Shown: one piece after another, positions 1 through 15,793 of the stretch
Layout: each line of letters starts with the position of its first letter
Numbering within the stretch: the first letter of the stretch is position 1
Origin: a virus
IMG/VR virus record: IMGVR_UViG_3300046734_000435
Coordinates: 1-39,349 of that record
Reading direction: 5' to 3' (one strand)
DNA length: 39,349 nt
Position numbers and translations under genes: made by a program
The notes under the pieces: model-generated
Databases searched by the model: none
The model's input: only the letters and a program-made list of their open reading frames with translations
What the model was told of the DNA's origin: nothing

Positions 1-2843
1 AGAGTTGCAGGGGCAGAATCTACTAGATTTGCTACAGAAGTATCCACATAATTCTCAGTTGCATATCCAGTAAGGCTTGGAACTTGTGATGCAACATATG
101 ATTTTGTTGCGTATGTTGCCAAATCTGCACTCACAAGTTCATCGGTAAAATCTAGTGCAAGTGAGGTTGCGTTGATAGCAGTACCAAGTTTTGAACCACC
201 GCCGGCCGTAGTAGATATTACACCCTCATCGCTGGTATAATATACACTGCCTGTAGTAAGTCCAGAGAGACCTGTATGAATTCCGTGTTCAAGAGTTACA
301 TCAATAGTCGTTCCCGCTGATGCTGCGACACCATGCAGTTTGTTAGAATCAAAGTTGCTTGCAGTAAATCCTGCTCGAATAAATCTTAGTGCTGCATTTG
401 ATCCATTGGGGTAATACAAAGAACCGTGTAAACTTGCAGATGTGTAATCAAATGATGCTCCCTCTAACGGCCAACTATTATCGATACTAGTTAATACACC
501 GCTCTTTGTGGGTCCGCTGGCATCAGTAGCAGCAATAGGTGCCTGAATAATCATTGAAGCGCGATTCGACGTGCCGCTGCGATAGTTCATTACCATATGA
601 TCACTATTCGGGAAAAACTGAAGATATGATGTTCTGTAATTGGTTGACTGCCATGCAATATGCAAATAATTCGATCTTACTAGAGTAATAGAACTACCAC
701 TAATCGTGTATTGTGCATAATTCGCTTTACCACCAACATCACTGTATAGTGAGAAAATTTGATCAGAAACTTTTGGATTCCAATCAGCGTGGTGTACATT
801 AAGACTACTATCAACAGAATTATTTAAATATGTCGCTGTTGATGAACTTGTTCCATTTGCATAATCAGTGTCATAAACTCTAATATAACCATCATATCCA
901 GAAACTAACCACCTTCCCAAGTTATTTGGATCTAGTTTAATTCTACCACAATCACGATTATTAAATTTATTAGCAACACTAATTACTGAACCAAAGGTTG
1001 GGGCATTTACGCCATCCCACTCAACTCTGATACAGTATATATCATCCTTTTCAAAGAAAATATTAAAGAAATAACTTCCAGTTGAGCTATGAGCATAGTC
1101 ATATATAATTTTCACATCTCCACTAAGTGTAGTTGTAGAACCCCAAGTTTCGCCATCAGAATCTGTTATAGTTTCCATGTCTGGTTCTGCATCGTGAGTT
1201 GTAGTAGTAGATGTTATATTTTTACTGGAGTCCACAGAAAATAGGTGTGCTGTGAATGTTAGAGCCCCCGCTGAGACTGTATCTCTACCAATCCAGAGAA
1301 CTTTTGATTCGTCAACTGGACTTACAAATGGATAACTTTGTTGTCCACTATCACCACCAGAAAAAGAATGCGTACTCCAATAGGTATTATCCTCTATAAT
1401 TTGAGAATACCAGTTAGAACCTGCTCTATAAATATGAAAAACTTTCAAAGGATCTGATGGATAGTGTCCACTGAACCATTTATTAAAATTATTTCCAGCA
1501 CCGCCGGCCGGATTCAATTCGGCAACATTAGTGTTGAGTGCGGTTGTTGTTACTTCTACTGGAGTCACAGTTCCATCAGTATTCAACATCATAACATCGT
1601 TTACAGACGCTGAAGCTGTTGATGTATATTCTACAACATTAGCGTTTGGCACATCTGCCACTGTGATAAATCCAGCACCATTTGTTAACTGATTGTTGTT
1701 TGTTGGAATAGTTGGTAGATTAGTTAAGTCATTATAAGAGCCAGATGTCGCAACAGATGCGAGAGATGATGTATCTGCCTTAGTCGCTAATGAGTTAGTG
1801 ACTGTAGTAGAGAAGTTTGCATCATCACCTAGTGCAGCTGCGAGTTCATTAAGAGTGTCTAATGTGCCGGGCGCAGCATCTACTAGATTATTTATTTGAG
1901 TCGTGACATATGTTTCAGTTGCAAATGACTCCGTACTACCCCCACCAGTTGATGTGACTTCTAAAGCTCCACCATTGTCTGAAAGTTCTATAGTACCAAG
2001 TGTGATACTATTCCCACTAAGATATAAATCTCTAAACTTATTAGTCGCACTACCTAAGTCATAAGTTTCAGTTGTGTCTGGTATGATATTTCCAGATATA
2101 CTACTAAGTGACGAATTATCAACCCATGTATAATCAGTTCCATTCCAAGAAAGAATTTGATTGTTGGTTGCACTAGTTTGATTTAAGTGTGAATCTACTT
2201 TTGTGTCATCATAATATAAATTATAAATTCCTTCATCTACATCATCTGTAGTAAGTAATACCGATCCCTGATAACCATTAACAGAATTTACAGTTACCAC
2301 GGCCGTTACAAATAAATCGTCTACATATTTTTTTCTTGCAGCATCAGTATCATTTATGGGTGCATCAAGACCTTTTATATTTGATGCATATACATCAACC
2401 CAAGTTTTTGAAGGACTACCTAAGTCATAAGTTGCAGTTGTATCTGGTAATATATCAGTGTAAGAACCTGACGCAATATCATCTGGTTTCCATAATGCCG
2501 TAGAATTTTCCCACACCAAGGCCTGGCCATCAGTTGGTGGGGTAGTGGTTGTATCTACATCAGTATGGTCACTTATAGAGGTCGTTGCAGTTGCCGCGCT
2601 GGCCGTGTCTGTTAAGTTATCAACAGCTCTTGCGAGTTTTTCTAATTCATCAGCTGTAGCAGTGGACGTTAATTGGTTGACGCGAGTATTTACCGCAATT
2701 TCGATTGCAGTGTTTTCTGTGTGTCCAATTGACTTTGCAGCTCTAGTTATAAGAAGTAATTCAGTTACAGACGCGGTTGCAATTTGATTCTGTAAATCAC
2801 TTACTAGTGCAGAAATAGAACTGTTTAAATTTGAATCTGCCAA
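1..2843 (-). CDS. Tail fibre/adhesin, MADSNL family, propeller-like region (partial)
   Basis: I translated this frame from 2843 to the left edge without meeting a stop: about 947 codons, with the 3' end outside the window. The start is TTG at 2843, chosen because an in-frame TAA lies five codons upstream, AGAGGA sits at Shine-Dalgarno distance, and the residues that follow (ADSNLN) match the ATG-started paralogues at 4994 and 6192. Residues 1-80 are the shared N-terminal domain. Next come two TYDLGS...W/F-DxY fibre repeats, a DAARKKYVDD motif and a LDTLNELAAALGDD segment. A long aromatic region (roughly residues 440-760) with motifs such as VLWIGRD and GRWLVSGYDG looks beta-propeller-like. 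A second copy of the LVDSAP motif begins at the edge. Inferred role: receptor-binding fibre. It has its own late promoter and is last of the adhesin array. Domain fold is inferred, not proven. Confidence 0.88.
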   Translation of the reverse strand, partial: MADSNLNSSISALVSDLQNQIATASVTELLLITRAAKSIGHTENTAIEIAVNTRVNQLTSTATADELEKLARAVDNLTDTASAATATTSISDHTDVDTTTTPPTDGQALVWENSTALWKPDDIASGSYTDILPDTTATYDLGSPSKTWVDVYASNIKGLDAPINDTDAARKKYVDDLFVTAVVTVNSVNGYQGSVLLTTDDVDEGIYNLYYDDTKVDSHLNQTSATNNQILSWNGTDYTWVDNSSLSSISGNIIPDTTETYDLGSATNKFRDLYLSGNSITLGTIELSDNGGALEVTSTGGGSTESFATETYVTTQINNLVDAAPGTLDTLNELAAALGDDANFSTTVTNSLATKADTSSLASVATSGSYNDLTNLPTIPTNNNQLTNGAGFITVADVPNANVVEYTSTASASVNDVMMLNTDGTVTPVEVTTTALNTNVAELNPAGGAGNNFNKWFSGHYPSDPLKVFHIYRAGSNWYSQIIEDNTYWSTHSFSGGDSGQQSYPFVSPVDESKVLWIGRDTVSAGALTFTAHLFSVDSSKNITSTTTTHDAEPDMETITDSDGETWGSTTTLSGDVKIIYDYAHSSTGSYFFNIFFEKDDIYCIRVEWDGVNAPTFGSVISVANKFNNRDCGRIKLDPNNLGRWLVSGYDGYIRVYDTDYANGTSSSTATYLNNSVDSSLNVHHADWNPKVSDQIFSLYSDVGGKANYAQYTISGSSITLVRSNYLHIAWQSTNYRTSYLQFFPNSDHMVMNYRSGTSNRASMIIQAPIAATDASGPTKSGVLTSIDNSWPLEGASFDYTSASLHGSLYYPNGSNAALRFIRAGFTASNFDSNKLHGVAASAGTTIDVTLEHGIHTGLSGLTTGSVYYTSDEGVISTTAGGGSKLGTAINATSLALDFTDELVSADLATYATKSYVASQVPSLTGYATENYVDTSVANLVDSAPAT

Positions 2844-2869
2844 CTTATCTTCCTCTTAACTTTCTGTAT

Positions 2870-2877
2870 TATTTATA
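2870..2877 (-). promoter_or_regulatory. T4-type late promoter TATAAATA
   Basis: The minus strand reads TATAAATA, 26 bases before the TTG start of the adhesin at 2843. The box lies just downstream of the stop codon of the preceding gene, so the left-edge adhesin probably has its own late transcript. Confidence 0.7.
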
Positions 2878-2879
2878 TT

Positions 2880-3845
2880 TTAATAAAGTGCATTTTTTAT
2901 AGTTGCTTCTTTCATATTAAATATGGTAGGAATTTTTTGACTTCTATTAATATTAATGTCAAAATTTTCTACTTCTGTAATGGAATATGGAATTCTTGTG
3001 AAAATATATTTTCCGTTTTTTTCTACTCTACCAATTTTAGAGTTTATAGTCAAATAATTTTCATCGTCTACTAATATGATATTTTTATCATAAAATATAT
3101 ATTCCGGCAAACTTATATTGGATTCCCAAGCATTGTGGCCAAGTATATAATAGTATGTATCTGAACTTGAATATATCTCATTACTATCATTTATTGTAAT
3201 TGATTTTGAAGAATAATAGTATTTAATTTTTTTAATAATATTCAACTTTTCGTCAAAATGTAGAAAATATGTATACTTATTTCCAGATACAACAATACCT
3301 AGTTTTGAAGTCTTTTCTCCGATTTCAATGTTTTTTATCTTGTCATCTATACTAATCTGTGTTATACTCTCCATGTTGTTGTTACAGAGAATAAAATAAT
3401 CTTCAAATACAAATAAAAACCTATTACTACTTGCACCATCCGAAATGACTAAACCTTTTATAAATTTAGAACTATATTTCCCACAAACTTCAAATTGATT
3501 ATCTTCAAAATTTGCTACAGAAATATGTCCATTGAATAGAATTGGAAATGAAGTACCAGAAAAATTTTTAGAATTATTATTTGACTTATAAGATTTATAT
3601 ACTATATTATCATTTGGGTTATTGTAGAATATTTTTGTTTTATCTTTTTGGTGTGCAATTTTCATGCCTGATTGATTTAGGGATAAAACATACCCCCCAT
3701 CATACTTTACAGGTAAGTTAGTCACATAATTATTTTCCGAAACTCTATTGGTGTCTATTACATATTTTTTAGTAGTATTACCACTAGATGCATTAGTTGT
3801 CATATATGAGTAAGAAACACCATTATGATAATTAGTTTCTGACAT
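2880..3845 (-). CDS. Unrecognised protein, possibly a propeller-like adhesin module
   Basis: A 321-residue protein, rich in Asn, Lys, Ile, Ser and Tyr, with no family I recognise. It consists of repeated short beta-strand-like stretches (YVLSLNQSG, FLFVFEDYFILC, LGIVVSG, YYILGHNAW, IILVDDENYL), compatible with a beta-propeller or other all-beta fold. I chose the ATG at 3845, which overlaps the stop of the preceding gene as TAATG, giving translational coupling. An in-frame ATG at 3860 would add five residues (MGFYL) and overlap that gene by 16 bases. The preceding gene carries the MADSNL core but no C-terminal effector, whereas this protein has no core. It may therefore be the detached distal part of that adhesin. 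Its base composition appears more AT-rich than its neighbours, which could mean recent exchange. Confidence 0.85.
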   Translation of the reverse strand: MSETNYHNGVSYSYMTTNASSGNTTKKYVIDTNRVSENNYVTNLPVKYDGGYVLSLNQSGMKIAHQKDKTKIFYNNPNDNIVYKSYKSNNNSKNFSGTSFPILFNGHISVANFEDNQFEVCGKYSSKFIKGLVISDGASSNRFLFVFEDYFILCNNNMESITQISIDDKIKNIEIGEKTSKLGIVVSGNKYTYFLHFDEKLNIIKKIKYYYSSKSITINDSNEIYSSSDTYYYILGHNAWESNISLPEYIFYDKNIILVDDENYLTINSKIGRVEKNGKYIFTRIPYSITEVENFDININRSQKIPTIFNMKEATIKNALY

Positions 3846-4435
3846 TAGATAGAACCCCATTCATGCCACTGTCCATTTGCATATGCATATACTTTGTTAG
3901 TATCTTGTGCAATTGCAAATGTAGAATTTTTACCGTTTGCTGGGAAACTTGCATAATCTGTATAACTATTAATTTTTGTATTCGTAGGTGCGTTTGCAAT
4001 ACCTACAAATTTATTTGTAGAATTATTATATACTAAAACATCCCCTGTAGATAAACTACTATGGTCTATATCTCTAATATCTGCCTTTACAATTTCTGAC
4101 CAAGACATATCAGTACCATCAGTTTTTAAGAATTCTCCGGCCTGACCATCCTGTCTTGGTAATTCTGCACCACTGGATGTATTTGGTGTTACTAAGTCTA
4201 ATACTTTACTAACTACCAAAGATAATTTTGTAATCGTTGCAACATCGTTTGCACCAGATAATAAACTGTTTAATCTAGTATTTAATAACTGTTCTAAATC
4301 ATCATTTTCTGTTTGTCTAATATTCTTAATTACTCTTGCATATTTAAGTAAATCATCGGCATTCGCTGTAGGAATACTGGTTTTTAAATCTGCAATAATA
4401 GAATTGATTGTAGAATGAAATGTTGTATCTGCCAT
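3845..4435 (-). CDS. MADSNL-family small fibre protein (core only)
   Basis: A 196-residue protein, second shortest of the four MADSNL paralogues. Residues 1-80 are the shared N-terminal domain (MADTTFHSTIN, then TENDDLEQ, R-L-N-S-L-L-S). A linker follows with GEFLKTDGTDMSWSEI, a motif common in phage fibres, and then a short C-terminal region with FAIAQDTNKVYAYANGQW. This last part aligns with the corresponding segment of the 184-aa and 395-aa neighbours (AEDTYHYWNGSAW in the latter). It ends where the 395-aa paralogue goes on into its LamG-like domain. It starts four bases after the previous stop with GGGGATAA as possible ribosome site, and its stop overlaps the next ATG (TAATG). Inferred role: fibre subunit or adaptor that may carry the coupled downstream protein. 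Confidence 0.88.
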   Translation of the reverse strand: MADTTFHSTINSIIADLKTSIPTANADDLLKYARVIKNIRQTENDDLEQLLNTRLNSLLSGANDVATITKLSLVVSKVLDLVTPNTSSGAELPRQDGQAGEFLKTDGTDMSWSEIVKADIRDIDHSSLSTGDVLVYNNSTNKFVGIANAPTNTKINSYTDYASFPANGKNSTFAIAQDTNKVYAYANGQWHEWGSI

Positions 4436-4439
4436 TTAA

Positions 4440-4994
4440 TTATCCCCAACTAGTTCCATTCCAAATCTGGAATGTATCGTCTGCTTGTATATGTACAACT
4501 TGACCGGTGACTGAACCAGAAACTGGAATATCTCCCGAAGTTGCGACTGATTGAATTTGTGGTATATTCGAATCAAATTTAGATGTTCCGTCATATAACA
4601 ATATATCATTGTCATTTGGAACTTCGTCTCCAATTTCTGTTATATTTCTTGTTACTACACCATTCCATTCATCTTGATTTCCGTCTGTCGATAAAAATGT
4701 ATTTGCAGAACCTGTTTGACTTGGAATAATTTCACCAACTGTCGCAGTATATACTGGATCTAACATTAAACCAACTGCCCTACCAAGTTTAGAAAGATCT
4801 GATGCTGTTGCAGTAGATGTTAAGGAAGAAACGCGAGAGTCTACTGCAACTTCTAATGTTGCATTTTCTGTTTGATCTAAAAAAACATTTGTCCTACATA
4901 ACTTTAATAATTCTTCTGCAGATGCACTACTAATTAGTGTTCCGACTCTAGATATAACTGCCGATGTTGATGTATTTAAATTTGAATCTGCCAT
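4440..4994 (-). CDS. MADSNL-family small fibre protein (core only)
   Basis: A 184-residue protein beginning MADSNLN. Residues 1-80 are the shared domain (TENATLEVAVDSRVSSL, then TSTATASDLSKLGRAV), closest to the partial adhesin at the left edge. It continues with NTFLSTDGNQDEW, DILLYDGTSKF and the terminal QADDTFQIWNGTSWG, which closes the protein. The DTxxxWNGxxW ending is shared with the 395-aa paralogue, where it is internal. This looks like the minimal form of the family, without an added receptor-binding module. AGGAA lies upstream of the ATG. It sits 10 bases after the stop of the 395-aa gene, in one operon. A minus-strand ORF at 4436-4633 in another frame is a shadow of this gene. Confidence 0.9.
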   Translation of the reverse strand: MADSNLNTSTSAVISRVGTLISSASAEELLKLCRTNVFLDQTENATLEVAVDSRVSSLTSTATASDLSKLGRAVGLMLDPVYTATVGEIIPSQTGSANTFLSTDGNQDEWNGVVTRNITEIGDEVPNDNDILLYDGTSKFDSNIPQIQSVATSGDIPVSGSVTGQVVHIQADDTFQIWNGTSWG

Positions 4995-5004
4995 CTTTTA
5001 ATTC

Positions 5005-6192
5005 CTATTCTATCGCCGGTGGTGTAAAGTTTGTGGTATATCTTACGGCATTACTAATTCTAAAATGTTTTATGTACGCAGAATCGATACCATTATTTGA
5101 GGTTTCGTGTAAATATAATTTTACTCTACTAATATTAGGTGTTCCTGCATTTGGATTTAAATACGCGACTTGACTACCATTGTGGTAAACTTTACACCCA
5201 CCAGAATTATATCCAGAAAATACAATTGCATGATGAACCCACTGCCCAGTTACACTCGATGTTGAGGCGGTTATTGATGCATTTGTACTACTTCCACCAG
5301 CTCCATCAAAATTGATCATGTCTGTTTTATATTCAACCATTCCTGTGTCAAACCAGTATGCTGGAGTACTTCCGAGAGTATCGATATATCCCCAGAATTC
5401 TATTGTAAAATTTGACCCCATCGAAAATGATGAGAAGTCATATTGCACTCCACCCGAATTGATATTTTTTAGTGCATTTCCTGATATACCAGTACTAGTT
5501 GCACTGACTACAGCAGTATTTGCATTTACCTGATTGACTCCACCATTACCGTAATTTGATATTTGTTCATTTCTATTTGTGTCAAATGATGCATACCAAA
5601 TAGTATTTGCATCTATCCAATTATATGCTGCGGCCTTAGTTATTTCCTGCCATGCACTACCATTCCAATAATGATATGTGTCTTCTGCAATTGCATAAAT
5701 AAATTGTCCAGATGTGCCAGATACTAAATTTGCAGATGATGCAATTGTTTCTATACTTGAGAATGGAGAATCAACTGCAGAAATATTTGTACCATCAAAT
5801 CCTAGTGCTTTGCCATCAGCAGCTGCCGTAAAATCTAAACCAGTTACATCCGTAGAATCTACTTTACTCCAACTTGTTGATATACCATTTGTTTCTAATA
5901 ATTTATTTGTGTGTCCAGTTTTAGTAGGTAAATCTACACCTACTACTACATTTGTTTCCAACAGATTATAAACTGCCCTAGAAAGATAGTGTTTTTCTAA
6001 TGGAGTTGCAGTAGATAATAAATTACCTACTCTAGTAGAAATTAAATTTTCTACTGTGTTGTTTTCTGTTCGATTAATAGATTTTAAACATAAAGATATA
6101 TCAAAAAGTTCTTTTGCTGTTGAAGTAGGAATTAATGATGTACATCTTGCAACTAAATCGTTAATAGAACCTGTTAAATTTGAATCTGCCAT
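5005..6192 (-). CDS. MADSNL-family adhesin with C-terminal LamG/lectin-like domain
   Basis: A 395-residue protein. Residues 1-80 form the shared N-terminal domain (MADSNLTGSIN, TENNTVENLISTRVGNLLS). Residues 80-190 form the fibre core with KLLETNGISTSWSKV and AEDTYHYWNGSAWQEI. Residues about 195-395 resemble a LamG/concanavalin-like jelly roll: WYASFD at its start, FSMGSNFTIEFWGYID, VTGQWVHHAIVFSG, CKVYHNGSQVAYLN and the terminal IKHFRISNAVRYTTNFTPP. Those are the usual strands of LamG-like domains in phage fibres and bacterial surface proteins. Such domains bind glycans, so the inferred role is host-surface recognition. It starts 9 bases after the 330-aa fibre gene with AAGGTAGAG upstream. 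It is the clearest evidence that a fixed core receives exchangeable C-terminal modules. Confidence 0.9.
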   Translation of the reverse strand: MADSNLTGSINDLVARCTSLIPTSTAKELFDISLCLKSINRTENNTVENLISTRVGNLLSTATPLEKHYLSRAVYNLLETNVVVGVDLPTKTGHTNKLLETNGISTSWSKVDSTDVTGLDFTAAADGKALGFDGTNISAVDSPFSSIETIASSANLVSGTSGQFIYAIAEDTYHYWNGSAWQEITKAAAYNWIDANTIWYASFDTNRNEQISNYGNGGVNQVNANTAVVSATSTGISGNALKNINSGGVQYDFSSFSMGSNFTIEFWGYIDTLGSTPAYWFDTGMVEYKTDMINFDGAGGSSTNASITASTSSVTGQWVHHAIVFSGYNSGGCKVYHNGSQVAYLNPNAGTPNISRVKLYLHETSNNGIDSAYIKHFRISNAVRYTTNFTPPAIE

Positions 6193-6201
6193 ATCTCTAC
6201 C

Positions 6202-7194
6202 TTAACCAATTGTAACGATTTGGATTTCAGAATTCAATTCCTGTCCATTCGTAAATTGTAATTCGTATTCATTTAATAATGTATATTTTGTTGGACATAA
6301 AATTTTACCATCAACAAATACCTGTATCCATGAACTATTTATAAATAAATTTTTTCCCTCATTATCAACAAATGTATACTTCAACCTACTTTGAGTTTCA
6401 ACCTTTTGTATTCTGGAATATATCAGTTTTGGAGTATTTGATAATTCTTTGTAATCTTTAGTACCCAATTCTGGTTTATTCTTTAGATATTTCCAATCAA
6501 TTTTTAGGGTTGTCAAGTCTGGTTTATTTTGGATATTTTTATAGTCTATTGAGTTAAATAAAGGCCTAATTTGATCGACAATATTAGATTTTAACTCGTT
6601 TGTATTAGATTCTGTTATAACTTTATTCCATTTTCTACCATCAGAATAATATAACAATCCTGTATCTTTTGCAATAGTAACCATACCATTGTGTAAATAT
6701 GGATGTGGAAATTTTGTAATACTTGAAAATCCTGTAGACCATTTAAAACTTTTCTTTACATGTGCGGTATCTGCAGTTATGTCCAATGTGTTAATTTCTG
6801 GATATTTGAATACTGTAACGCTACCTTTGGCCAGTTCTCTAAATGTCAATTCAATTCTATTATCATCTTTATATGTTACATCATAATTAGTTGTCAAACT
6901 ATCTTCAATATATACAAAAAATGAATTTGCATCAGTACCAAAATTATGATTGATAATCCATTTTCTTTCATTATTATTTTGAATGTGAAAGTAAGTATCT
7001 CTTTTTTCTGTAAGTTGATACCATGTTTTAATTCCATCTAGTTTTGTATAGATGTATAACGCACCACGTACTAGTGCAGTTTCCCCAACTTCTGGATACA
7101 TTGGAAAATTTAAATGATTTGTTGCAAAAGTCAAAGTACCCTTGACTCTTACGTTTTGCATATTTAATGTTCTAGTTTTCTGTGTCATCGTCAT
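6202..7194 (-). CDS. Tail fibre protein with NKP repeats
   Basis: A 330-residue fibre-like protein. Near residues 70-130 is the WIINHNFGT...YVTYKDDNRIELTF-type beta domain seen in other fibres of this window (xHNxxT followed by a D-N residue pair and GSVTVF). The middle has DTGLLYYSDGRKWNKV, a common fibre-linker motif. Residues 215-260 carry three imperfect Y-K-x-L-x-N-K/T-P repeats (YKNIQNKPDL, WKYLKNKPEL, YKELSNTPKL), as in many marine phage fibres. A final beta domain carries WIQVFVDG. The listed start (7194) lies inside the previous gene. ATG at 7188 has AGAGAAG at better spacing and may be the true start. The TATTTATAAATA palindrome at 6336 lies in its 3' part. Inferred: fibre or fibre-baseplate connector. 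Confidence 0.86.
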   Translation of the reverse strand: MTMTQKTRTLNMQNVRVKGTLTFATNHLNFPMYPEVGETALVRGALYIYTKLDGIKTWYQLTEKRDTYFHIQNNNERKWIINHNFGTDANSFFVYIEDSLTTNYDVTYKDDNRIELTFRELAKGSVTVFKYPEINTLDITADTAHVKKSFKWSTGFSSITKFPHPYLHNGMVTIAKDTGLLYYSDGRKWNKVITESNTNELKSNIVDQIRPLFNSIDYKNIQNKPDLTTLKIDWKYLKNKPELGTKDYKELSNTPKLIYSRIQKVETQSRLKYTFVDNEGKNLFINSSWIQVFVDGKILCPTKYTLLNEYELQFTNGQELNSEIQIVTIG

Positions 7195-7408
7195 CTTCTC
7201 TAAATCTAATGTCTTGTGCAGTACCTACAAAATATACTTTACCAGACAAGGCCATTTTTATAATTTCAAATAAATGTCTTTGATATCTAATATATTCTAA
7301 TTTTTCTTCTTTAGATGCGGATTTATTATCGAAATTAAAATTATCAAGATTTTTTTCAATTTTTTGTATCCATGCAACTATTTGAGTTGGGTGTATAGTT
7401 CTACTCAT
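7172..7408 (-). CDS. Small hypothetical protein, possible fibre-assembly factor
   Basis: A 78-residue protein I do not recognise. It is probably mainly helical, with charged stretches (IQKIEKNLDNF, SASKEEKLEYIRYQRHLFEIIKMAL), a short GKVYFVGTAQDIRF strand region and an acidic tail (EDDDDTEN). It overlaps the previous gene by 8 bases and the next by 23, so all three are probably translationally coupled. Small helical proteins placed directly before fibre genes in T4-type phages include fibre-assembly chaperones such as gp57A. Position suggests this role, but I see no sequence match. The VYFVGTAQDIRF part could alternatively be a small fibre-tip or attachment piece. Confidence 0.8.
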   Translation of the reverse strand: MSRTIHPTQIVAWIQKIEKNLDNFNFDNKSASKEEKLEYIRYQRHLFEIIKMALSGKVYFVGTAQDIRFREDDDDTEN

Positions 7409-7607
7409 GTTCTAACTTAATCTCCATTTGTGTGAGATAGTTTTGAACTACAGAAACTTGCTCTGCATATTTTTCTCTTAAATCATCTTTATGGAAGTTT
7501 GTTACTAATGCATTTTGTTTTAGCATGCCAATAGATTCTCTCATAACACTTTTCATTTCTGTCGGATCATCAATGAGAGATAGATCATAATATTTTAACT
7601 CTTGCAT
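7401..7607 (-). CDS. Small helical hypothetical protein, first gene of fibre operon
   Basis: A 68-residue protein, probably nearly all alpha-helical (DPTEMKSVMRESIGMLKQNAL, then a C-terminal amphipathic helix ending in MEIKLEHE). No family recognised. It has a strong ribosome site, AAAGGAG, upstream of ATG 7607, and the late-promoter octamer at 7627-7634 lies 19 bases before the start, so it opens the transcript that continues through the adhesin array. It overlaps the next small gene by 8 bases. Possible roles are a fibre-folding chaperone or a minor virion component. This is inference from position only. Confidence 0.82.
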   Translation of the reverse strand: MQELKYYDLSLIDDPTEMKSVMRESIGMLKQNALVTNFHKDDLREKYAEQVSVVQNYLTQMEIKLEHE

Positions 7608-7626
7608 TTTTAAAACTCCTTTCTTC

Positions 7627-7634
7627 TATTTATA
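7627..7634 (-). promoter_or_regulatory. T4-type late promoter TATAAATA
   Basis: Minus strand TATAAATA, 19 bases before the ATG at 7607 and immediately after the U-tract of the terminator at 7636-7664. One operon ends and the next begins within about 40 bases. Confidence 0.75.
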
Positions 7635-7635
7635 T

Positions 7636-7664
7636 AAAAAAATAGGGGGCCTGGCCCCCTATTT
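7636..7664 (-). terminator. Intrinsic terminator after the 858-aa fibre gene
   Basis: A 10-bp perfect stem (AAATAGGGGG with CCCCCTATTT, 7640-7649 and 7655-7664) closes a 5-base loop. On the minus strand it is followed by a run of seven T. It lies 25 bases beyond the stop of the 858-aa fibre gene at 7689, a textbook rho-independent terminator. Confidence 0.88.
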
Positions 7665-7688
7665 CATAAAGAATTAAATTAATGAGTT

Positions 7689-10265
7689 TTAAATATCAGT
7701 CATTGCCATTACTGATACGCGCACATGTCTAGATTCTGTGAGATAAACAGTAAGAGTATTTGAATCAGTTTCCTCTATTGGTACAACATCGTTTGCATAC
7801 AAGCCGTCATCTCCCAATACCATACATTGGATTATAAGAAAGTTTGTATTCAAGTTATGCGAAACTGTATGTGTTGTTGCAGTTGCAGTTGATTGATATG
7901 TAAATCTTAAATCATTAACATCTGTTCTAATTGAACTATCGGAAGAAATTCTCTGTGCCTGTTCTGTCGCTAAATCTGATTCCAAATCTAATACAAGAGA
8001 TTCTAGAGTATCATAACTATCTTTAACTGCAGAATCTAATAATACGTGTGCATTTGCAATACTAGTTGCTGTATCAATATAATTTGTACCAGATGGTGCA
8101 GCGTAAGTACCATCGGTATTTAATCCAGATGCAGTTTCAACTGCGTCTACTTCGGTTTGTAAGGTTGCAATTGCAGTTGTGTTATCACTAATACTAGTAG
8201 TGATAGATGAATCAAGTTTTAAACCATTTGATGATGTTGAAAGTGAACTACCATCTATTCTGATTGCTAGATTTGCACCAGTGGCGACCGAATCTGTCGA
8301 ACCATCTGCAGTCAACATCAAACCACCATCTGCACGTACATCGATACCAATTTCGTCTGAAGGTAATTCTGAAACACCAGCACCAAAGTTTAGAAATAAT
8401 TCGTTACCACTTTTTTGAATACCGGCCCCAGCAATAATTTGTCCAGCACCAGAGAATTGTTCAAATGATATTGATGTTGTACCAACTGTAATAGAACCGT
8501 CTGTTACAAGTACATAACCATTATCTGCATTTAGTGTACCTTCTTCCACAAATGTAAATGTACCAGAAGTTAATACAGAACCAGTATCTGCGTCATCAGA
8601 TCGGGCCAGAGTTGTAGTAGATAGTGTATAAGTGTAAATACCATTTTCAGAACCAGTACTTTGGTCTTTAACAAGTACTCTATCACCATCGACTAATGTT
8701 ACACCATCAATTGATGTTACACTTGATAAACTTGTAATATTCGAAGTAGTTGCAACTCTAACAGATTCTTTTACATCTAAACCAGTTGCAACACTATCGA
8801 CGTATTCTTTGTTCGCCGCATCTGTCGGGTCGGTAGGATTTGCAACACTAATAATTCTATTGTTGCCCATGTCCAAATTGCCAGACATAGTATCACCAGA
8901 TTTACTAACTTTAGTAGTAATACTATCTGTAGTAGTTTTAATTTGAGCATCCAATAAATCGTCTGCATCAGTTAAATCTGTTGCACCAGTAATATAGTTA
9001 GAAGATGAATTTGCAGTATATGCACCATTAGTACCTAATCCGGCGCCAGTCTGTGTTGCGTTAACTTCTGATTGTAAAGAATTTAATGCAGTATCAAGTC
9101 TTTCATCTGCATCCTTTAATGAAGTCGCTGCAGTAAGATAATTTGTACTAGAGTTTGCACTGAAAGTGCCGTCCGTGGCAAGACCTGATCCAGTTTGTGT
9201 GACATCTAATTCAGATTGTAAATTTGTAATTGCAGTATTGATTGTAACATCTGCATTTGTTCTTGCTGTAATCTCTGCGGATAAATTATCGTTTGTGGTT
9301 TTTAATTGTCCGTCCAAAGTTGCATCTGCGTTTTTTAAAGATGTTGCAGTAGTTAAATAGTTTGTACCAGAATCTGCACTGTAAGTACCACTCGAACCAA
9401 GTCCTGCCCCGTTCTGAGTACTGTCTAATTCATTTTGTACACCTTGTACCGCACTATCTAATAGAAAGTCAGCATTTTTTAAAGATGTTGCAGCAGTAAG
9501 ATAATTTGTTGTATTATCGGCAAGATAAGATCCATCTGTTTCTAGTCCAGCTCCAGTTTCAATATCATCAATTTCTACTTGGACTTCTGCTGGGAATGAT
9601 GTTGTCTTTAGAGTACCAACCATTGTACTTGGATGATTGTCACATACATAATACAAATAATCTGGTGAATCCATCGGCACTTTAAAAATTAATGTACCAC
9701 TCTCTTTGCCCTGTGCATTAGTTCCTGTGACAACTGTACCAGCACCGTCATCGTGACTTACACCATCATTGTATTCCGTTGCAGGGTTTGATGCATCCGT
9801 AAGAATTCTAAAGGGATGTCCAGATGCATTTAAATCTAATTTATATGTAATTCCTGGCTGTAATTTGAGTGTAGGATTATTATCACCGTCTATAACATAT
9901 GCGCCAGATGTAGTAGAAACTGCAAAGGTAATGGATGCCTCTACGTTATCTAGTGCGGTTTCTAATGTATCAATCTGGGTTTGCAGAGCCGAGTCTGCAT
10001 TTGTTCTGTCTGTTACTTCTGTGGTAATTGTAGAATTTAAAGTTGCAACTTCTGCTGTTAGTTCATCTAATGAAACGGCCTGATGAACTATAATTGCCCC
10101 ACCAGAATCGAGAGAAGAAAATTTGAATACTTTATCCGTAGTATTGTACCACAGTCTGCCAGGTTCAGACGGCGTTGGGTCAGAGGTAAGTTTCTCAATT
10201 CGTAAGTTCTCAATAAACGAATTATCTGCTAACTCTAAACCATGAAATTTTACATATCTAGGCAT
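7689..10265 (-). CDS. Large tail fibre with cupredoxin-like domain and fibre repeats
   Basis: An 858-residue fibre. Residues 1-60 resemble fibre N-termini (GRLWYNTTDKVFKF). Residues 62-110 are a coiled-coil-like stretch. Residues about 111-222 form a cupredoxin-like domain with His150 (ASGHPF) and YYVCDNHPSTM providing Cys208, His211 and Met215, the type-1 copper ligand set. Residues 237-440 hold four copies of a repeat GxGLxxxGxYxAxxxxNYL-x-ATSLKxAD-x-LD; a fifth lies near 715-745. A GDTMSGNLDMGNNRI collar motif lies at 456-470, DAANKEYVDS at 482-491, then the VRVATT...IDGV-GDRVLVKDQ...NGIYTY fibre domain. The C-terminus has the HNLNT-type beta domain also present in the 127-aa and 330-aa proteins. 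GGAG precedes the ATG. It forms a single-gene operon between its own late promoter and terminator. Inferred: trimeric host-contact fibre; copper binding is unproven. Confidence 0.92.
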   Translation of the reverse strand: MPRYVKFHGLELADNSFIENLRIEKLTSDPTPSEPGRLWYNTTDKVFKFSSLDSGGAIIVHQAVSLDELTAEVATLNSTITTEVTDRTNADSALQTQIDTLETALDNVEASITFAVSTTSGAYVIDGDNNPTLKLQPGITYKLDLNASGHPFRILTDASNPATEYNDGVSHDDGAGTVVTGTNAQGKESGTLIFKVPMDSPDYLYYVCDNHPSTMVGTLKTTSFPAEVQVEIDDIETGAGLETDGSYLADNTTNYLTAATSLKNADFLLDSAVQGVQNELDSTQNGAGLGSSGTYSADSGTNYLTTATSLKNADATLDGQLKTTNDNLSAEITARTNADVTINTAITNLQSELDVTQTGSGLATDGTFSANSSTNYLTAATSLKDADERLDTALNSLQSEVNATQTGAGLGTNGAYTANSSSNYITGATDLTDADDLLDAQIKTTTDSITTKVSKSGDTMSGNLDMGNNRIISVANPTDPTDAANKEYVDSVATGLDVKESVRVATTSNITSLSSVTSIDGVTLVDGDRVLVKDQSTGSENGIYTYTLSTTTLARSDDADTGSVLTSGTFTFVEEGTLNADNGYVLVTDGSITVGTTSISFEQFSGAGQIIAGAGIQKSGNELFLNFGAGVSELPSDEIGIDVRADGGLMLTADGSTDSVATGANLAIRIDGSSLSTSSNGLKLDSSITTSISDNTTAIATLQTEVDAVETASGLNTDGTYAAPSGTNYIDTATSIANAHVLLDSAVKDSYDTLESLVLDLESDLATEQAQRISSDSSIRTDVNDLRFTYQSTATATTHTVSHNLNTNFLIIQCMVLGDDGLYANDVVPIEETDSNTLTVYLTESRHVRVSVMAMTDI
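8946..9557 (-). repeat. Four fibre repeats in the 858-aa fibre
   Basis: Four divergent copies of a motif GAGL-x3-G-x-Y-x-A-x4-NYL-x2-ATSLK-x-AD-x3-LD, separated by coiled-coil-like linkers. Related copies occur in the 376-aa fibre at 37549-38679. They are protein-level repeats; the DNA copies have diverged. Confidence 0.75.
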
Positions 10266-10303
10266 CGTGTCTTACTCCAAGGTTTTTATTTTTTATATAC
10301 TGA

Positions 10304-10311
10304 TATTTATA
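10304..10311 (-). promoter_or_regulatory. T4-type late promoter TATAAATA
   Basis: Minus strand TATAAATA in the 63-base gap before the 858-aa fibre gene, 38 bases from its ATG at 10265. Confidence 0.75.
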
Positions 10312-10328
10312 ATATTTAGTTTCTATGT

Positions 10329-10712
10329 TTAAGTTACTAATGAAGTTCCGTCAAAAAATACGTCCACATAACCACTTATACTTTCTGACAGGTGTACCTT
10401 GAAAGAATTTGCATCTAATGTTTCTACATATGCGTAAAATTGGTCTCCATTGGAATCGAAAAGTTTTTCACTGAATTGTGTTGTGTTTTTATTATGAGTA
10501 ATTACCCAACTCACCGAAGGAGTTGAAATATTATATCTTTCAAATTCTATAGTTAAATTTGTCAGACCCAAATTCACACGAGCTGTTGCTGCATCAGTGG
10601 CACCTGTACCACCATGTGCCAAACCAACCGCTTCACTTGCAGTAAACTCGCCGAGGGCGTAAGAGTCACCCCCAGCGTCTGTAATTACTTTTAATGGTAT
10701 AACATCAGTCAT
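10329..10712 (-). CDS. Short fibre-tip-like protein with GGTGA motif
   Basis: A 127-residue protein made of two typical phage-fibre pieces. Residues 1-50 are a GEFTASEAVGLAHGGTGATDAATARVNLGL segment; the pattern GGTGAxxAxxARxNL-x-L is widespread in phage fibres and recurs at residues 36-51 of the 1062-aa PKD protein, along with a GEFT motif before it. Residues 60-127 are the beta domain with WVITHNKNTTQF, a DANSFKVHL strand and SGYVDVFFDG at the end. That domain also ends the 858-aa fibre and occurs in the 330-aa fibre protein. It follows the 1346-aa GNGMR paralogue by 18 bases with no promoter seen between, so the two are probably co-transcribed. Inferred role: small fibre or knob, perhaps attached to the product of its upstream neighbour. 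Confidence 0.87.
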   Translation of the reverse strand: MTDVIPLKVITDAGGDSYALGEFTASEAVGLAHGGTGATDAATARVNLGLTNLTIEFERYNISTPSVSWVITHNKNTTQFSEKLFDSNGDQFYAYVETLDANSFKVHLSESISGYVDVFFDGTSLVT

Positions 10713-10730
10713 TAACTAATGTCTCTCTTA

Positions 10731-13700
10731 TTATGATGAAAGGTAGGAATTATCAACACCCCACCCGTCAGTTAATAGTAGTACACGCATTCCATTTCCA
10801 TAACTTTTTGTACTCATCATACCTTTGTAAGTTCTAGTCTTATTGGTTAGTCCACTATCACTAAATCTATCACTAGATACTAGTGTATCTTGTCCTACAG
10901 AACCACCATCACAGAATGCAATCAAATCAATCTCTTTTCCAGTGAATAGATATCTTTGCGAACCAATTCTGTTAGGAAATTGGATAACCAACTGACCATC
11001 ATCATTCAAGGATAATTGTTCTAATGGATTGATTACAGAGTGTGAATCGGTTTCATTAAGACCTGCAAAAACATGTCTATCCCATGGTTTTAATGTATCT
11101 TTTTCTCGTACAACAAACCTACGGAATCTACCCTGTCCTTCCATATCAAATGCAGCAAGTTCCTCTGCAATAACTGGATTAACATAAAAATCCGTAACAT
11201 AATTTCCTGCTCGGTCATATAATCCTTGATATGCAACAGAACTTTGTCTCTTATCGATTTCTCTATCTGTAAAGTAAATACCATAATCTGACCAAAGAAC
11301 TGGTGGTTCGGATGTTTGATATATGCAATGAACTGGTTGCGTATTAGATGTGAAATCAGGCTCTCCTGTAACAGAATCGACATGTCTTTGAACAACAACC
11401 CATGCATTATCATCTGATTCTGATGATGACGCCTGATCCCTCACTGCAAATGCTATTCCATGATCTGCAATAGTTAAGAAATAACTCATAGGATATGATG
11501 GTGCGACATCCGAAAATTGTTTTCCACTTCTTCTAAAAAATCCTTTTTGAATACGCATATTACCAGTATTATATGGTGTATCATATATTAATTCTGTACT
11601 AGAACCAGTTAAATATTGTTCTTCGTATCGATATTCTCCATCTTCAAGTAATCCTTTTGTAACAACCACAGGAGCGGCAGTAGTACCTCTAGTTTCATAT
11701 GTGATATTTTTAACACCTGAACCACTAGTATTATTGGCGAAAATATCCGCAAGTCCAGACGTATCAACCCCTTCTACCTGATCCATTGCAATACCAACCC
11801 TACCGGCACTAATATTAATTTCTGATTCTACTGCATCATCCAATTGGGCCCTTAGTGTATATGGGTTTATTAAATGTACATTTGATTGTACATATCCACT
11901 ATATTGTGGTCTTAATGCACCAAGAAACCCTGGCTCTCTTATTCTTGCCGGTTTAGTTACATCTACACCTTGTGTTTCGGTAACATCACCATTACTTAGT
12001 AATTGATACTTTGTTGCAATATGTAATTGTAAATATTCAAATTGTCTATCAGATACTAAACGTGGGTCTACAGAATTATTTCCTAATTCGATATGAACCT
12101 CGTTAATATATGGTGACGCATCTTTGATTTCATACCCTCTAGAAACATTAAGTCTAATTCTCCAAGCCTGATCTCCATCAGTTCCCGATAGTGGTGAACT
12201 ATTAGATGTTTCTAATACAATTGGACCCATTGAATAATCTCTTACGTATTCAAAAGAATCGATATCTAAATTAGAAGTGTTGTACTGGAAATCCGATGCC
12301 TTAGTTAATCCCAAATCTAAACTACCATGTGTTTGATTTGGATGTCTATATCTCTTATCATAATCAAATGATATTTCTGGACCTGTTGGTCTTTCTGTTT
12401 TCACATCCGCCGAGGTATCACTCAATATTTGTTGATAATATGAGTATGTATAATTTGATGCTGAGCTGTTACCTTGAATTGCAGGGAAAACTTCCCAACC
12501 AATATTATTAACTGGATTTGCAAAAGTGCCCATATCTCTTGATAATGGGAACGATAACCTAATATTACCAACATTAGATACTGCTGGTTCTTTTGTTGTT
12601 TGGAAATTAAAAGTTAATGGGTCACTTGTGACTAAAGTATTCTCAGTATAAGTCACCGAAGAACCGAACTTTGCCAAATCTGGAACATCTTCTGCAAACA
12701 ACCCATCGGTTAGAACAGTTGGACCATAATGTGCGTAAGGATTAACAAATTTAATACTACCTTGTTCGGTATTTGCGTCCATAGTGCCAGTGGATGGAAA
12801 TAATCCACCAGTACCAAACCTAGTCGCGTCAGTTGCAAAAGTGGTTGAAATATTTGCCGCAACGGAATTTTCTATCCATGCAAAGAAGTTTTTACGTGTG
12901 GATAGATTGCTGCTAGTTAGGTTTGCCATAGTCCACCAATCGTGGTTAAATGTAGCAAAAGTGCCAGCGGTGAATCTACCAGCGGTGACCGCAGTTTGAT
13001 ATGCGACAGACTTAGCATTAAATAACCCCCACCCCTTATCATCGGTGGCAGTACGTTTTTTTGATCTTCTTAAATATGCACTAGAATCTTCTGCATATTC
13101 TACGTCGATATAATTTGTACCAGTTTTTACAAACATATATTGCGAAATATATGGATCTAGTTTCATCTCATTAGCCATAGCAGTTGTTAATGCTAATGCA
13201 GTCATAGGAACCTTTGCTGTGAAAGTTATTGAAAGTTCAATTGGATCAGCAGTCCAAGGTTTTTCGGCAGATTCATCAACCAAATTGGTTAACTTAACCT
13301 CGAATGTATCGCCAGGGTCTGCACCATCAAACCCACTAATAGTATGTTTGTGTACATAACCCTCCATATAGTGGGTTTTGCCACCAACACTGACAGGAGA
13401 TCTGAACTGGCTCGATTGCCCGAAATCTTCATACCACCTCCAGCCGGCGGTGTTAAGTCCAAGTTGATCGGTATTTAAATTTCTATAATTCATTTTAAAT
13501 CCAGAATTATAGGTTACAGTACCGTGTTGGGCGATTTTAGGCTCGGTGATGCCAGAGAAACTTTGGTTTGAACCAGATGGAAATCCAACAGTTGGTGTAG
13601 CTCCATACTGTTTTACGTAAGGAATTCTGTTTACCGTCATAGTTTGTTCGACAGAATTCTGGTTTGCATAACCTTCCATAATACCAATTCTTGATGGGTC

Positions 13701-14771
13701 TACACTAAGAGTCAAATAACCAGATAATGGATTTGCAATTGCAGAATTAACAAAACTATTATAAACCTTTTCTAGAAAAGGTTCGACTTCATCACTATCA
13801 ACCGTAACCGAATCTAGTGTTGTAATTGAAGCAGAAGTTTTTTGACTTGTACTTGTCAATGTAAACTCGTAAGTGTCTCCATACTGTAATATGCCAGGCT
13901 CAGAACTTAACCCAATAAAACCTTCCCATTTTGCAGGTTCGGTAACATCGGCTGGGAAAAATTGTTCATCTTTGTATGTTGTAAACCAAAAATGGTGATT
14001 AATAACACCACTAGGTTCTAGTTCTTCTACATAATTTCTTAAATTTCCTTTTGAATCAATGCCACTTGCAACGTCTGGATAAGCAACGACATATCTTGCA
14101 CTAGTAGTAATAAGTCTTTTAATTTTTGCAAATTCGTTTCTATAAACTCTTTCTGATATAAAACTTAATCCAAAATAACCTGTCTGTTCATCGGCCTTCT
14201 TCTTTCTAGTAGGTACATTTGGTAATACTTTCAACCAATTACCGTCTGCATCCTGATTCTGTGGGTTTGGGTTTAAATATGCAAATAACTCGGCGTTTGG
14301 TCCTAAGAACTTATCAAAATATGTTGCATCTTCGCCAGGATACTGTGTTTTAAAAGTGGCGGATTTGGAGCCAGGCAACGATGTTGAAAGATAATCTGCC
14401 CAGTGATCGTTGCCAAATCCAGTATAAGGATCGTCTTGGATTTGTTTAATTTTTAAATCATTATTATCCATTTTCCATTCTGTAAAAGTTCCGTCATATC
14501 CTTCTGACGTAACATTTCTTAATCCGTGAGCCCCTTCATTAATAATATTTGTATTGGAATCATAATAGTACACAATAATATTATCAATATATCTGGTTAG
14601 AGCTGCATCACTAACTGTAATTTTTACGACTTCTGGGCCAACATCTATAAAACCATTGTCCATTAAATCTTCTGCTAATTGTGTAATTAATGGTTTATCT
14701 GGTTCTCTTCTTCGGTTCCAACGATACCCATCTAATTGAAAAATATCATTTCTTTGAATAGCTCTACTCAT
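10731..14771 (-). CDS. Giant virion structural protein, GNGMR paralogue 4
   Basis: A 1346-residue protein, the largest complete one in the window and the fourth member of the GNGMR family. The N-terminus SRAIQRNDIFQLDG resembles the SIQRNEIINIS start of the 1262-aa paralogue. The first 850 residues are mostly family-specific beta-rich sequence without a domain I recognise. The shared C-terminal module includes HIATKYQLLSNGDVTETQG, FFRRSGKQF, YPMSYFLTIADHGIAFAV, WVVVQRHVDSVTGEP, PVHCIYQTS, RFVVREKDTLKPWDRHVFAG, SVINPLEQLSL, GSQRYLFTGKEIDLIAF and KGMMSTKSYGNGMRVLLL near the C-terminus. AGGAG precedes the ATG. It sits apart from its three paralogues, 10.8 kb further along. Inferred role: baseplate-peripheral or tail-surface component. 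Confidence 0.93.
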   Translation of the reverse strand: MSRAIQRNDIFQLDGYRWNRRREPDKPLITQLAEDLMDNGFIDVGPEVVKITVSDAALTRYIDNIIVYYYDSNTNIINEGAHGLRNVTSEGYDGTFTEWKMDNNDLKIKQIQDDPYTGFGNDHWADYLSTSLPGSKSATFKTQYPGEDATYFDKFLGPNAELFAYLNPNPQNQDADGNWLKVLPNVPTRKKKADEQTGYFGLSFISERVYRNEFAKIKRLITTSARYVVAYPDVASGIDSKGNLRNYVEELEPSGVINHHFWFTTYKDEQFFPADVTEPAKWEGFIGLSSEPGILQYGDTYEFTLTSTSQKTSASITTLDSVTVDSDEVEPFLEKVYNSFVNSAIANPLSGYLTLSVDPSRIGIMEGYANQNSVEQTMTVNRIPYVKQYGATPTVGFPSGSNQSFSGITEPKIAQHGTVTYNSGFKMNYRNLNTDQLGLNTAGWRWYEDFGQSSQFRSPVSVGGKTHYMEGYVHKHTISGFDGADPGDTFEVKLTNLVDESAEKPWTADPIELSITFTAKVPMTALALTTAMANEMKLDPYISQYMFVKTGTNYIDVEYAEDSSAYLRRSKKRTATDDKGWGLFNAKSVAYQTAVTAGRFTAGTFATFNHDWWTMANLTSSNLSTRKNFFAWIENSVAANISTTFATDATRFGTGGLFPSTGTMDANTEQGSIKFVNPYAHYGPTVLTDGLFAEDVPDLAKFGSSVTYTENTLVTSDPLTFNFQTTKEPAVSNVGNIRLSFPLSRDMGTFANPVNNIGWEVFPAIQGNSSASNYTYSYYQQILSDTSADVKTERPTGPEISFDYDKRYRHPNQTHGSLDLGLTKASDFQYNTSNLDIDSFEYVRDYSMGPIVLETSNSSPLSGTDGDQAWRIRLNVSRGYEIKDASPYINEVHIELGNNSVDPRLVSDRQFEYLQLHIATKYQLLSNGDVTETQGVDVTKPARIREPGFLGALRPQYSGYVQSNVHLINPYTLRAQLDDAVESEINISAGRVGIAMDQVEGVDTSGLADIFANNTSGSGVKNITYETRGTTAAPVVVTKGLLEDGEYRYEEQYLTGSSTELIYDTPYNTGNMRIQKGFFRRSGKQFSDVAPSYPMSYFLTIADHGIAFAVRDQASSSESDDNAWVVVQRHVDSVTGEPDFTSNTQPVHCIYQTSEPPVLWSDYGIYFTDREIDKRQSSVAYQGLYDRAGNYVTDFYVNPVIAEELAAFDMEGQGRFRRFVVREKDTLKPWDRHVFAGLNETDSHSVINPLEQLSLNDDGQLVIQFPNRIGSQRYLFTGKEIDLIAFCDGGSVGQDTLVSSDRFSDSGLTNKTRTYKGMMSTKSYGNGMRVLLLTDGWGVDNSYLSS

Positions 14772-14824
14772 TCGTGAACTCCTTAATGCATAAAGTTTTA
14801 TTAACTAACTTGTTTTGTTTCTAT

Positions 14825-14832
14825 TATTTATA
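14825..14832 (-). promoter_or_regulatory. T4-type late promoter TATAAATA
   Basis: Minus strand TATAAATA in the 77-base gap before the 1346-aa gene, 53 bases from its ATG. The rest of this gap shows only AT-rich sequence and the ribosome site. Confidence 0.72.
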
Positions 14833-14848
14833 AAAATAAAAATCCTTA

Positions 14849-15793
14849 TTATGTAACCATATCTATATTATCTTGTGTACCATCTGAAAAGAAAAATCTA
14901 ACATAGGAAGATAATACTTCTGAACCGTCAAATGTTGCAATCAAGTTTAAATCATCTCTTGTACCATCTGAATATTGAAAATGTAAAAATGCGCCGGATG
15001 TGCCTGATGCTATTTGTTGAGGTTCGAATCTTTCTGTTACACTATTATATACAATACCAACTTGTTGTTGACTTTGTACCAAACTATTTATTTGCGATTC
15101 AGTATGTCCACCATAACTAAAATTTGCCAAGGAATATTGCACACTATTTATAGTTGCTCTATTTCTGTCTACGTCTTGTATTAAATCATCTAAATCTGTG
15201 TTTACTCTATCTTCTAATTCTAATAACTGATTTGAAAGAGAATCAAGTTCAATTTGTGTCTGTCCACCAGACGTACCAAATGTTCCTATATATCTTGCAC
15301 CAGAAATATAAATTTTATTTCCAGAAATTCCAGATGGTAGATTATTACCAATAAAATGTAAAATGCCAGATTGATAATCAAAAAACCATTCATCATCATT
15401 TCCAGAACCTGCTGCAAATATTTGATTGCCGGATGTTGGATTTGTAGAACTTGCAGAATCTATATAAACTTTTACTTGATATGTACTACCAAATTCTGGT
15501 GGTATCCAATCTGTTAAATTTGTTTTCCAAGTACGATTTGATGTAGACGTTAAATCCATATCACACTCAACCGTATTTGAATTTAAATATAATTCAACAT
15601 ATGTACTATTTACGGTTGGAATAATTGCAGGAATTTCTTGAGATTCTGACCAAAGTCTATCTCCACGTAATAATAATGGACTTGGGATAGCTTCGTTAGT
15701 TGCGCCCTTTATAGAATTTAAGTCTGTCTTGGATGCACCATAACCTAATTTTTTCCAAAGAAAGTCTAATTTTTGATTATCGGGTATTGACAT
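14849..15793 (-). CDS. Virion structural protein, beta-rich with coiled coil
   Basis: A 314-residue protein starting MSIPDNQKLDFLWKKLGYG, followed by TNEAIPSPLLLRGDRLW. This N-terminus is one I associate with structural proteins of marine T4-like phages, but I cannot name a function. Residues 60-170 are beta-rich, including WKTNLTDWIPPEFGSTYQVKVYID and FDYQSGILHFIGN. Residues 180-215 are a likely coiled coil (IELDSLSNQLLELEDRVNTDLDDL). The C-terminus has two similar short strands (FLHFQYSDGTRDDLNLIA and VRFFFSDGTQDNIDMVT), an internal duplication. It follows the PKD protein by 9 bases with no promoter between and is probably co-transcribed. Inferred: trimeric fibre or baseplate-attachment protein. 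Confidence 0.87.
   Translation of the reverse strand: MSIPDNQKLDFLWKKLGYGASKTDLNSIKGATNEAIPSPLLLRGDRLWSESQEIPAIIPTVNSTYVELYLNSNTVECDMDLTSTSNRTWKTNLTDWIPPEFGSTYQVKVYIDSASSTNPTSGNQIFAAGSGNDDEWFFDYQSGILHFIGNNLPSGISGNKIYISGARYIGTFGTSGGQTQIELDSLSNQLLELEDRVNTDLDDLIQDVDRNRATINSVQYSLANFSYGGHTESQINSLVQSQQQVGIVYNSVTERFEPQQIASGTSGAFLHFQYSDGTRDDLNLIATFDGSEVLSSYVRFFFSDGTQDNIDMVT

Follow-up and report, generated by a model that had tools for sequence, protein, structure and literature searches.

Four neighboring genes in a virus record of 39,349 bases (IMG/VR record IMGVR_UViG_3300046734_000435; this whole stretch is called the window here) encode proteins that begin alike and end differently. This raises the question of whether such an array arose by recent duplication within this phage, with its receptor-binding ends exchanged afterwards, as a preliminary description had proposed, or whether its members are older. 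We call the genes A, B, C, and D, their common start of ~80 residues the N-domain, and the genes nearby X, E, and F (Table 1). The observation of four homologous starts with different ends was confirmed. The subtypes and their duplications look old, and our comparisons support exchange of the C-terminal modules (tails), mostly in relatives of this phage.

Over their first 80 residues, A, B, C, and D are related in all six pairs at a blastp E value of 4.8e-11 or better (best, 7.5e-29), with the pairs among B, C, and D taking in the following core as well as the N-domain. The aligned N-domains have 15 invariant columns, including T42 E43 N44, E48, R54, L58, S60, and A62. Local alignment scores lie 14.8 to 24 standard deviations above 500 shuffles in six of six pairs, and no shuffle reached the real score. 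These three lines of evidence agree that the four starts are homologous, as had been claimed. At the DNA level, the paralogous N-domains of the window are 52–56% identical. No Pfam or PHROG match of A–D falls on the N-domain, and a literature search of limited extent found no description of it.

Behind the N-domain, B and C end after a core of ~100 residues and D runs on into a LamG-like domain, again as described. B and D are 30% identical over 195 residues and C and D 35% over 185 (blastp, N-domain included), and the core ends in IWNGTSWG in C and in ANGQWHEWGSI in B. The tail of D matches Laminin_G_3 (PF13385; E 1.7e-9, 38.4 bits vs. a cut-off of 27.6), as does that of its counterpart in a related contig, L052 (44.1 bits, above the gathering score). 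A search with the LamG tail returned only this phage and the L052 contig. For A, the description held in that the core is absent and fiber repeats are present; its putative propeller-like part matched no Pfam family. Tail or tail-fiber PHROGs match A within residues 214–397, and residues 308–367 match PDB entry 9d93, "tail collar fibers" (E 7.6e-9). A opens with TTG and is incomplete, running past the window edge after at least 947 amino acids; the TTG start (window 2843) is common to A and its L052 counterpart (L052 14355).

Gene X had been described as an unrelated module coupled to a core-only gene, and this was borne out: X lacks the N-domain, and its start codon overlaps the stop codon of B. 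Since the ATG at 3845 overlaps that stop (TAATG) and two relatives show an overlap of this kind (TAATG, ATGA), X probably starts at 3845 rather than at 3860, where the open reading frame opens. X matched no PHROG or Pfam family and was found only in this phage and in the contigs of L052 and of another relative, L029, whose X had no match among isolate phages. It follows B directly in all three of these lineages and has, at 25–30%, the lowest identity among the genes compared across relatives. The model of X, built from three sequences, is all-beta with a mean pLDDT (predicted local distance difference test) of 50.4; its best rows are largely propeller proteins by title (Foldseek E 1.3e-3; VIA Z 9.9, root-mean-square deviation 4.4 over 152), a weak likeness from a low-confidence model.

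How widespread is the N-domain? A profile built from ten N-domains, the kind of search that the preliminary description had suggested, found a family at 21 loci in 20 viral contigs. Copies per record range from 1 to 14 in the 20 records counted (6 in G002, 14 in G007, and 9 in G015), which were picked for earlier matches to the N-domain or to gene E, so that 20 of 20 is no measure of prevalence. The five records with one copy (G004, G017, G018, G019, and G020) are all fragments. Among 50,697 isolate phage records, single-sequence searches of limited sensitivity found nothing for whole C (E ≤ 0.01), the N-domain of A (E ≤ 1), or an N-domain from G002 (E ≤ 1). Whole D matched six Rhizobium phages, only at LamG residues 318–393; a whole member of the MANTF subtype matched nine records, only from residue 79 on; and the B of a relative matched 16, the best 10 of which match only residues 94–194. 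Of four stretches with the pattern in prokaryote genomes, one is a relative. A contig placed in a Saprospirales metagenome-assembled genome (L100, PAPS01000031.1) has 37,816 bases like the record of L033, with the match at the same place, which is either a weak hint at the host or a binning error.

The age of the subtypes was approached with a tree built on 84 columns from 67 distinct N-domains, in which 17 of the 64 inner branches have good support. It groups the members from the window, L052, and L029 by subtype rather than by phage: B at 100/99, D at 99/97, and C at 94/79. The gene order E-D-C-B-X is the same in these three lineages, with A next in the window and L052 and not in L029. Among other relatives, in which subtypes are labeled by first letters (MADAQ, MANTF, MPN, MSDT) or by length (179 amino acids), the order D-B-179-MADAQ-MANTF-MPN occurs in all four records whose length suffices (G007, G010, G011, and G015). 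Each of the 12 lineages that have D or B has both, with the window, G001, and G002, all records of this phage, counted once. In G007 (L083/L084) and G015 (L087), MPN, MSDT, and MANTF recur as a neighboring triplet at a second genome place. The duplications therefore look old: each of B, C, and D clusters with its counterparts from other lineages, and their order is nearly fixed. The gene order agrees with the tree and thus speaks against a recent duplication. Rather than empty cassettes, the core-only genes are conserved members of the array in relatives.

Exchange of C-terminal modules, the other half of the original proposal, is supported by comparison of relatives. We defined a break as a 50-residue segment with less than 40% identity and counted pairs among G007 to G015, the lineages of the window, L052, L029, and G016 being more distant. 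Long members break in 69 of 70 pairs (MADAQ 14/15, MSDT 6/6, MANTF 21/21, and MPN 28/28) and short types in none (D 0/28, B 0/21, and the 179-amino acid type 0/6); among close relatives, D is similar over its whole length. Over their first 100 residues, the long members are 74–100% identical (without G016), and in later blocks often only 10–35%. In MADAQ and in one MSDT pair, identity rises again to a high level toward the C-terminus, which makes the middle the part that changes. In ten long members, FG-GAP_2 lies above the Pfam cut-off in seven and LamG in one, while most Kelch and all Ig/cadherin-like matches lie below it. The tails also recur on other subtypes (filters of 45% identity and 60 amino acids; at least 61 rows). 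Among the matches listed are those of a MANTF to a MADAQ member (50% over 382 amino acids), of an MPN to a MANTF member (49% over 193 amino acids), and of the D(291) tail to stretches of other fibers (54–65%). The D(291) tail, which we read as cupredoxin-like, matches phrog_677.

The ends of single subtypes differ by lineage as well. D ends in LamG in the window and L052, has no tail in L029, and has another, apparently cupredoxin-like tail in G007 to G016; C has no tail in the window and L052 and one of ~229 amino acids in L029. We considered whether LamG had moved from D to C in L029 and found no support for this, as the C tail has no Pfam (0.01), PHROG, or PDB sequence match and no profile match to the LamG of D. 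A unit of 1.95 kb (a 264-amino acid N-domain gene and a 368-amino acid gene) that G005 carries is missing from G004, with flanks 94–98% identical. A crossover between N-domain copies as the cause of this difference was not borne out: the N-domain DNA of G004 is 90% identical to the 685-amino acid gene of G005 and 64% to the 264-amino acid gene. Among seven records, which may be fragments, none matched RVT_1 (diversity-generating retroelement) or PF00239 Resolvase (serine recombinase of an invertible cassette), tyrosine recombinases not having been searched for.

For this phage itself, the evidence for exchange is weaker. D and its L052 counterpart are 43–47% identical to residue ~180 and 70–88% beyond it (DNA, 55–62% to 75–87%), so that the D tail is ~80% identical to that of a relative whose D core is ~46% identical. 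The linkers of A match those of a 2423-amino acid fiber with another N-terminus (82% of DNA over 381 bases and 88% over 209 bases). This fiber (L109 4229–11500, record G022) has long segments between its linkers; the N-domain profile gives only a weak partial match in G022, in a gene other than the fiber (E 0.007). Two other records are of the same phage as the window (99.9% over ~15 kb); one of them is 140.9 kb long and carries the domain twice more, at 106 and 111 kb. The proposed exchange in this phage is thus favored by the jump in D and by the linkers on another fiber, and disfavored by near copies that carry the same array.

A second array lies at L022 6498–17009 (106.5–117 kb of G002), where two N-domain fibers (773 and 647 amino acids) are interspersed with genes of 96, 375, 236, 620, and 640 amino acids; this region is 99.5% identical in G012.

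Variation also occurs at the window edge, within A. Contig L003 has no mismatch to the window at 14,769 sites (226 to 14,994) but 12 at 186 sites (40 to 225), followed by more differences, and L002 has 3/14,769 vs. 12/208 at the end. The three contigs of this phage end within ~20 bases of one another, in the same fiber linker of A. We did not take this as proof of allele exchange: part of the A linker matches the G022 fiber at several places, so linkers repeat and assemblers may mix copies. A self-comparison of the G022 fiber gave only the trivial row. The variation may reflect true differences between alleles, as in metaviromic islands, or a mixing of repeated linkers.

The N-domain is predicted to be a four-helix unit. 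In the model of C, helices span residues 4–21, 26–38, 45–59, and 64–78 within a block of pLDDT 78–95 over residues 1–80; a poorly predicted middle follows, and then a beta end with pLDDT 85–88 from residue 151. One PDB and one viral fold search with the C model gave no match at E ≤ 0.001, and neither these nor VIA gave a named family for the N-domain; the best VIA Z of the N-domain, 8.2, is below the tool's mark for helical bundles. A similar stretch (residues 140–187) of a relative's B matches isolate tail fibers at E 0.3–0.7; together with the fold matches of the C model to Mtd and others given below, this at most suggests a trimerization motif.

The genomic setting is seen best in L029, as the window ends inside A. 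There, D, C, B, and X precede genes that match a head-tail adaptor (Ad2), head closure (Hc2), and T4-gp15_tss (E 8e-67), then an open reading frame of 159 amino acids and genes for TerL and sheath, which places the array directly before genes of gp13-gp14-gp15 type. L029 appears to have the T4-like order gp13-gp14-gp15-gp16-gp17-gp18 next to tail genes, and the best 12 of 2,650 isolate matches of its TerL are to cyanophage-type records (57–58%). In T4, gp9–gp12 and wac lie before gp13. Because head-tail adaptor, head closure, and gp15 genes follow it, the L029 array sits where T4 has gp9–gp12 and wac, although no listed profile match of the array is named gp10, gp11, gp12, or wac.

We think it probable, reasoning from the sequences, that the array encodes tail-attached fibers and short fiber-base proteins with a common, new anchor domain, comprising conserved short subunits and exchangeable adhesins. 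As to docking, trimerization, place on the virion, receptor binding, and the route of recombination, we infer the following. The four-helix N-domain would most likely serve to attach each protein either to the virion or to paralogs, and the core beta motif (WNG-x-x-W) of B, C, and D may serve trimerization. B, C, and the 179-amino acid type of the relatives would be conserved subunits. Behind the anchors of D, C, A, and the long members, modules that probably bind receptors (LamG, cupredoxin-like, and FG-GAP) would be added, removed, or replaced, with recombination at conserved junctions (the core end and fiber linkers) leaving the anchors in place.

A number of points weigh against this reading. 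The tree, which has few columns, comes with a warning of long branches joining within the groups of B and of D (the rows of L029 and L052) and is not decisive alone; its C group falls below the support threshold, and the pairing of A with its L052 counterpart has no more than 88/48. B and the 179-amino acid type account for 27 of the 55 short pairs and end ahead of the point at which most long members break, so that their 0/27 says little and D is the fair contrast to the long members. The break pairs are not independent and include paralogs of one genome, some long rows are truncated open reading frames, and not all long tails are unrelated, some pairs keeping 40–60% identity. The two near copies of this phage carry the same array with no swap, and G012 and G002 show none either (99.5% over 16 kb). 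Summed fourfold-site identity, at 38/63 in the D tail, 9/26 in the core, and 109/216 in F, does not indicate a recent exchange, and the jump in D could reflect constraint. Matches of the C model to Mtd, the collagen XVIII trimerization domain, and CBA120 TSP3 cover 37–46 columns at E 2.0–2.7, no better than unrelated rows.

The subtypes might instead form one hetero-oligomeric hub, branched or stacked, in which the short proteins would be indispensable partners, with exchangeable adhesins on only some of the subtypes. The constant company of D and B (12 of 12 lineages), the nearly fixed order, the triplet repeated at a second place in G007 and G015, and the assembly of known branched systems via conserved N-terminal domains (PMC10253068, PMC9700779, in the passages concerned) make this quite possible, if not what we expect; the subtypes could also be parallel fibers with separate sockets, and five records have a single copy, albeit as fragments. 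More tentatively, from the same sequences, the subtypes may be fixed positions in one hub of paralogous four-helix domains, the short ones structural and the long ones adhesins, with part of it repeatable elsewhere as a triplet; host range would then change only behind the trimerization plug or between fiber linkers, the hub staying constant. The preliminary description also suggested that several different adhesins may share one baseplate socket; the neck or collar would be an alternative site. That the array encodes neck or collar fibers (whiskers) rather than baseplate adhesins seems unlikely to us. The L029 array does lie directly before neck-type genes, in the interval that in T4 holds wac as well, and A matches 9d93, but the same stretch of A also matches many tail-fiber PHROGs, and F matches a baseplate wedge/tail fiber connector profile.

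The original proposal, duplication specific to this lineage and then exchange of tails, has tandem paralogs with different tails in its favor, and the 1.95 kb unit of G005 indicates that units can be gained or lost. We nevertheless regard it as very improbable and a recent duplication in this phage as disfavored, given that B, C, and D group with counterparts in distant lineages, that the order there is the same, and that the paralogous N-domains have only 52–56% DNA identity. The D tail and the A linkers could, finally, be more similar than the anchors only through slow evolution, no exchange having taken place in this phage. Close kin are alike, and the fourfold-site identity of the D tail is not far above that of F; against this stand the jump in identity at residue ~180 within one gene, the LamG, missing, or cupredoxin-like tail of D by lineage, and the recurrence of A linkers on a fiber with another N-terminus, and we hold slow evolution to be a poor prospect as the sole cause.

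Table 1. Genes and other features of the array region in the window.
Feature	Position	Strand	Description
End of visible gene A	1..225	(-)	three otherwise near-identical contigs begin to differ here and all stop
Gene A	3..2843	(-)	N-domain (residues 1-80), fiber repeats, linker (~290-440), putative propeller-like stretch (~440-830), second linker; cut at window edge
Gene X	2880..3845	(-)	321 amino acids from coupled ATG; open reading frame opens at 3860; low-confidence all-beta model
Gene B	3845..4435	(-)	N-domain and core only, 196 amino acids, ATG start at 4435
Gene C	4440..4994	(-)	N-domain and core only, 184 amino acids, ATG start at 4994
Gene D	5005..6192	(-)	N-domain, core, and LamG-like C-terminal domain, 395 amino acids, ATG at 6192; tail ~5008-5640
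Gene E	6202..7194	(-)	conserved, directly upstream of the array in three lineages; without N-domain
Gene F	7689..10265	(-)	upstream flank; structural; a stretch matches phrog_677 (baseplate wedge tail fiber protein connector)

Elsewhere in the window, large proteins at 10731–14771 and 32624–34372, like one at L052 1424–5965, have a common C-terminal stretch of ~250 amino acids that matches phrog_12249, "tail sheath"; as the stretch occurs in two different window proteins, this name may mislead. A single protein at 19010–20053 joins a PAAR-type profile and a baseplate hub/tail lysozyme profile.

Several adhesins per phage, with common N-terminal domains and differing receptor modules, have been described in CBA120, RaK2/phiK64-1, phiKp24, and the Ackermannviridae, and the conserved 5' ends of these branched systems were proposed to allow recombination (PMC10253068, PMC9700779, PMC11414711). 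What characterizes a branched complex, several genes with homologous N-termini and different C-termini, is found here, with a putative adhesin role. Fourteen fibers were proposed for phiKp24, and G007 has 14 copies of the N-domain. As far as the cited passages go, the branched systems use gp10-like (XD) or D1 beta-sandwich domains and depolymerase modules, whereas here the model has four helices and the modules look lectin- or propeller-like; unlike in those descriptions, several members here consist of anchor and core only. The array may work like the branched systems of CBA120, RaK2, and phiKp24, a likeness drawn from the genes alone, with a domain that is not recognizably gp10-like or D1-like.

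Pelagimyophages and cyanomyophages have a hypervariable host recognition cluster with tail fibers that ends at the neck gene gp14 (PMC7029224). The likeness lies in their being T4-like marine phages; concanavalin A and major tropism determinant domains occur there. The passages in question mention neither a common N-domain family nor conserved short paralogs (PMC7029224), and the N-domain queries found nothing in isolate phages. In the metaviromic islands of marine phages, some under-recruiting genes serve host recognition (PMC3909814, in part); similarly, a comparison of contigs shows three from the phage studied here that differ within A and stop there.

Probable host-recognition genes of uncultivated T4-like marine phages are marked by an unnamed anchor-domain family that reaches 14 copies in a single record. 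Kept parts can be told from exchanged parts, so that candidate receptor modules become readable from metagenomes. If the docking role is true, the N-domain would be another kind of anchor for multi-adhesin tails, beside the gp10-like and D1 domains. The array seems to be a new form of a known host-switching strategy, in which the same anchor carries different, often exchanged, and probably host-binding ends.

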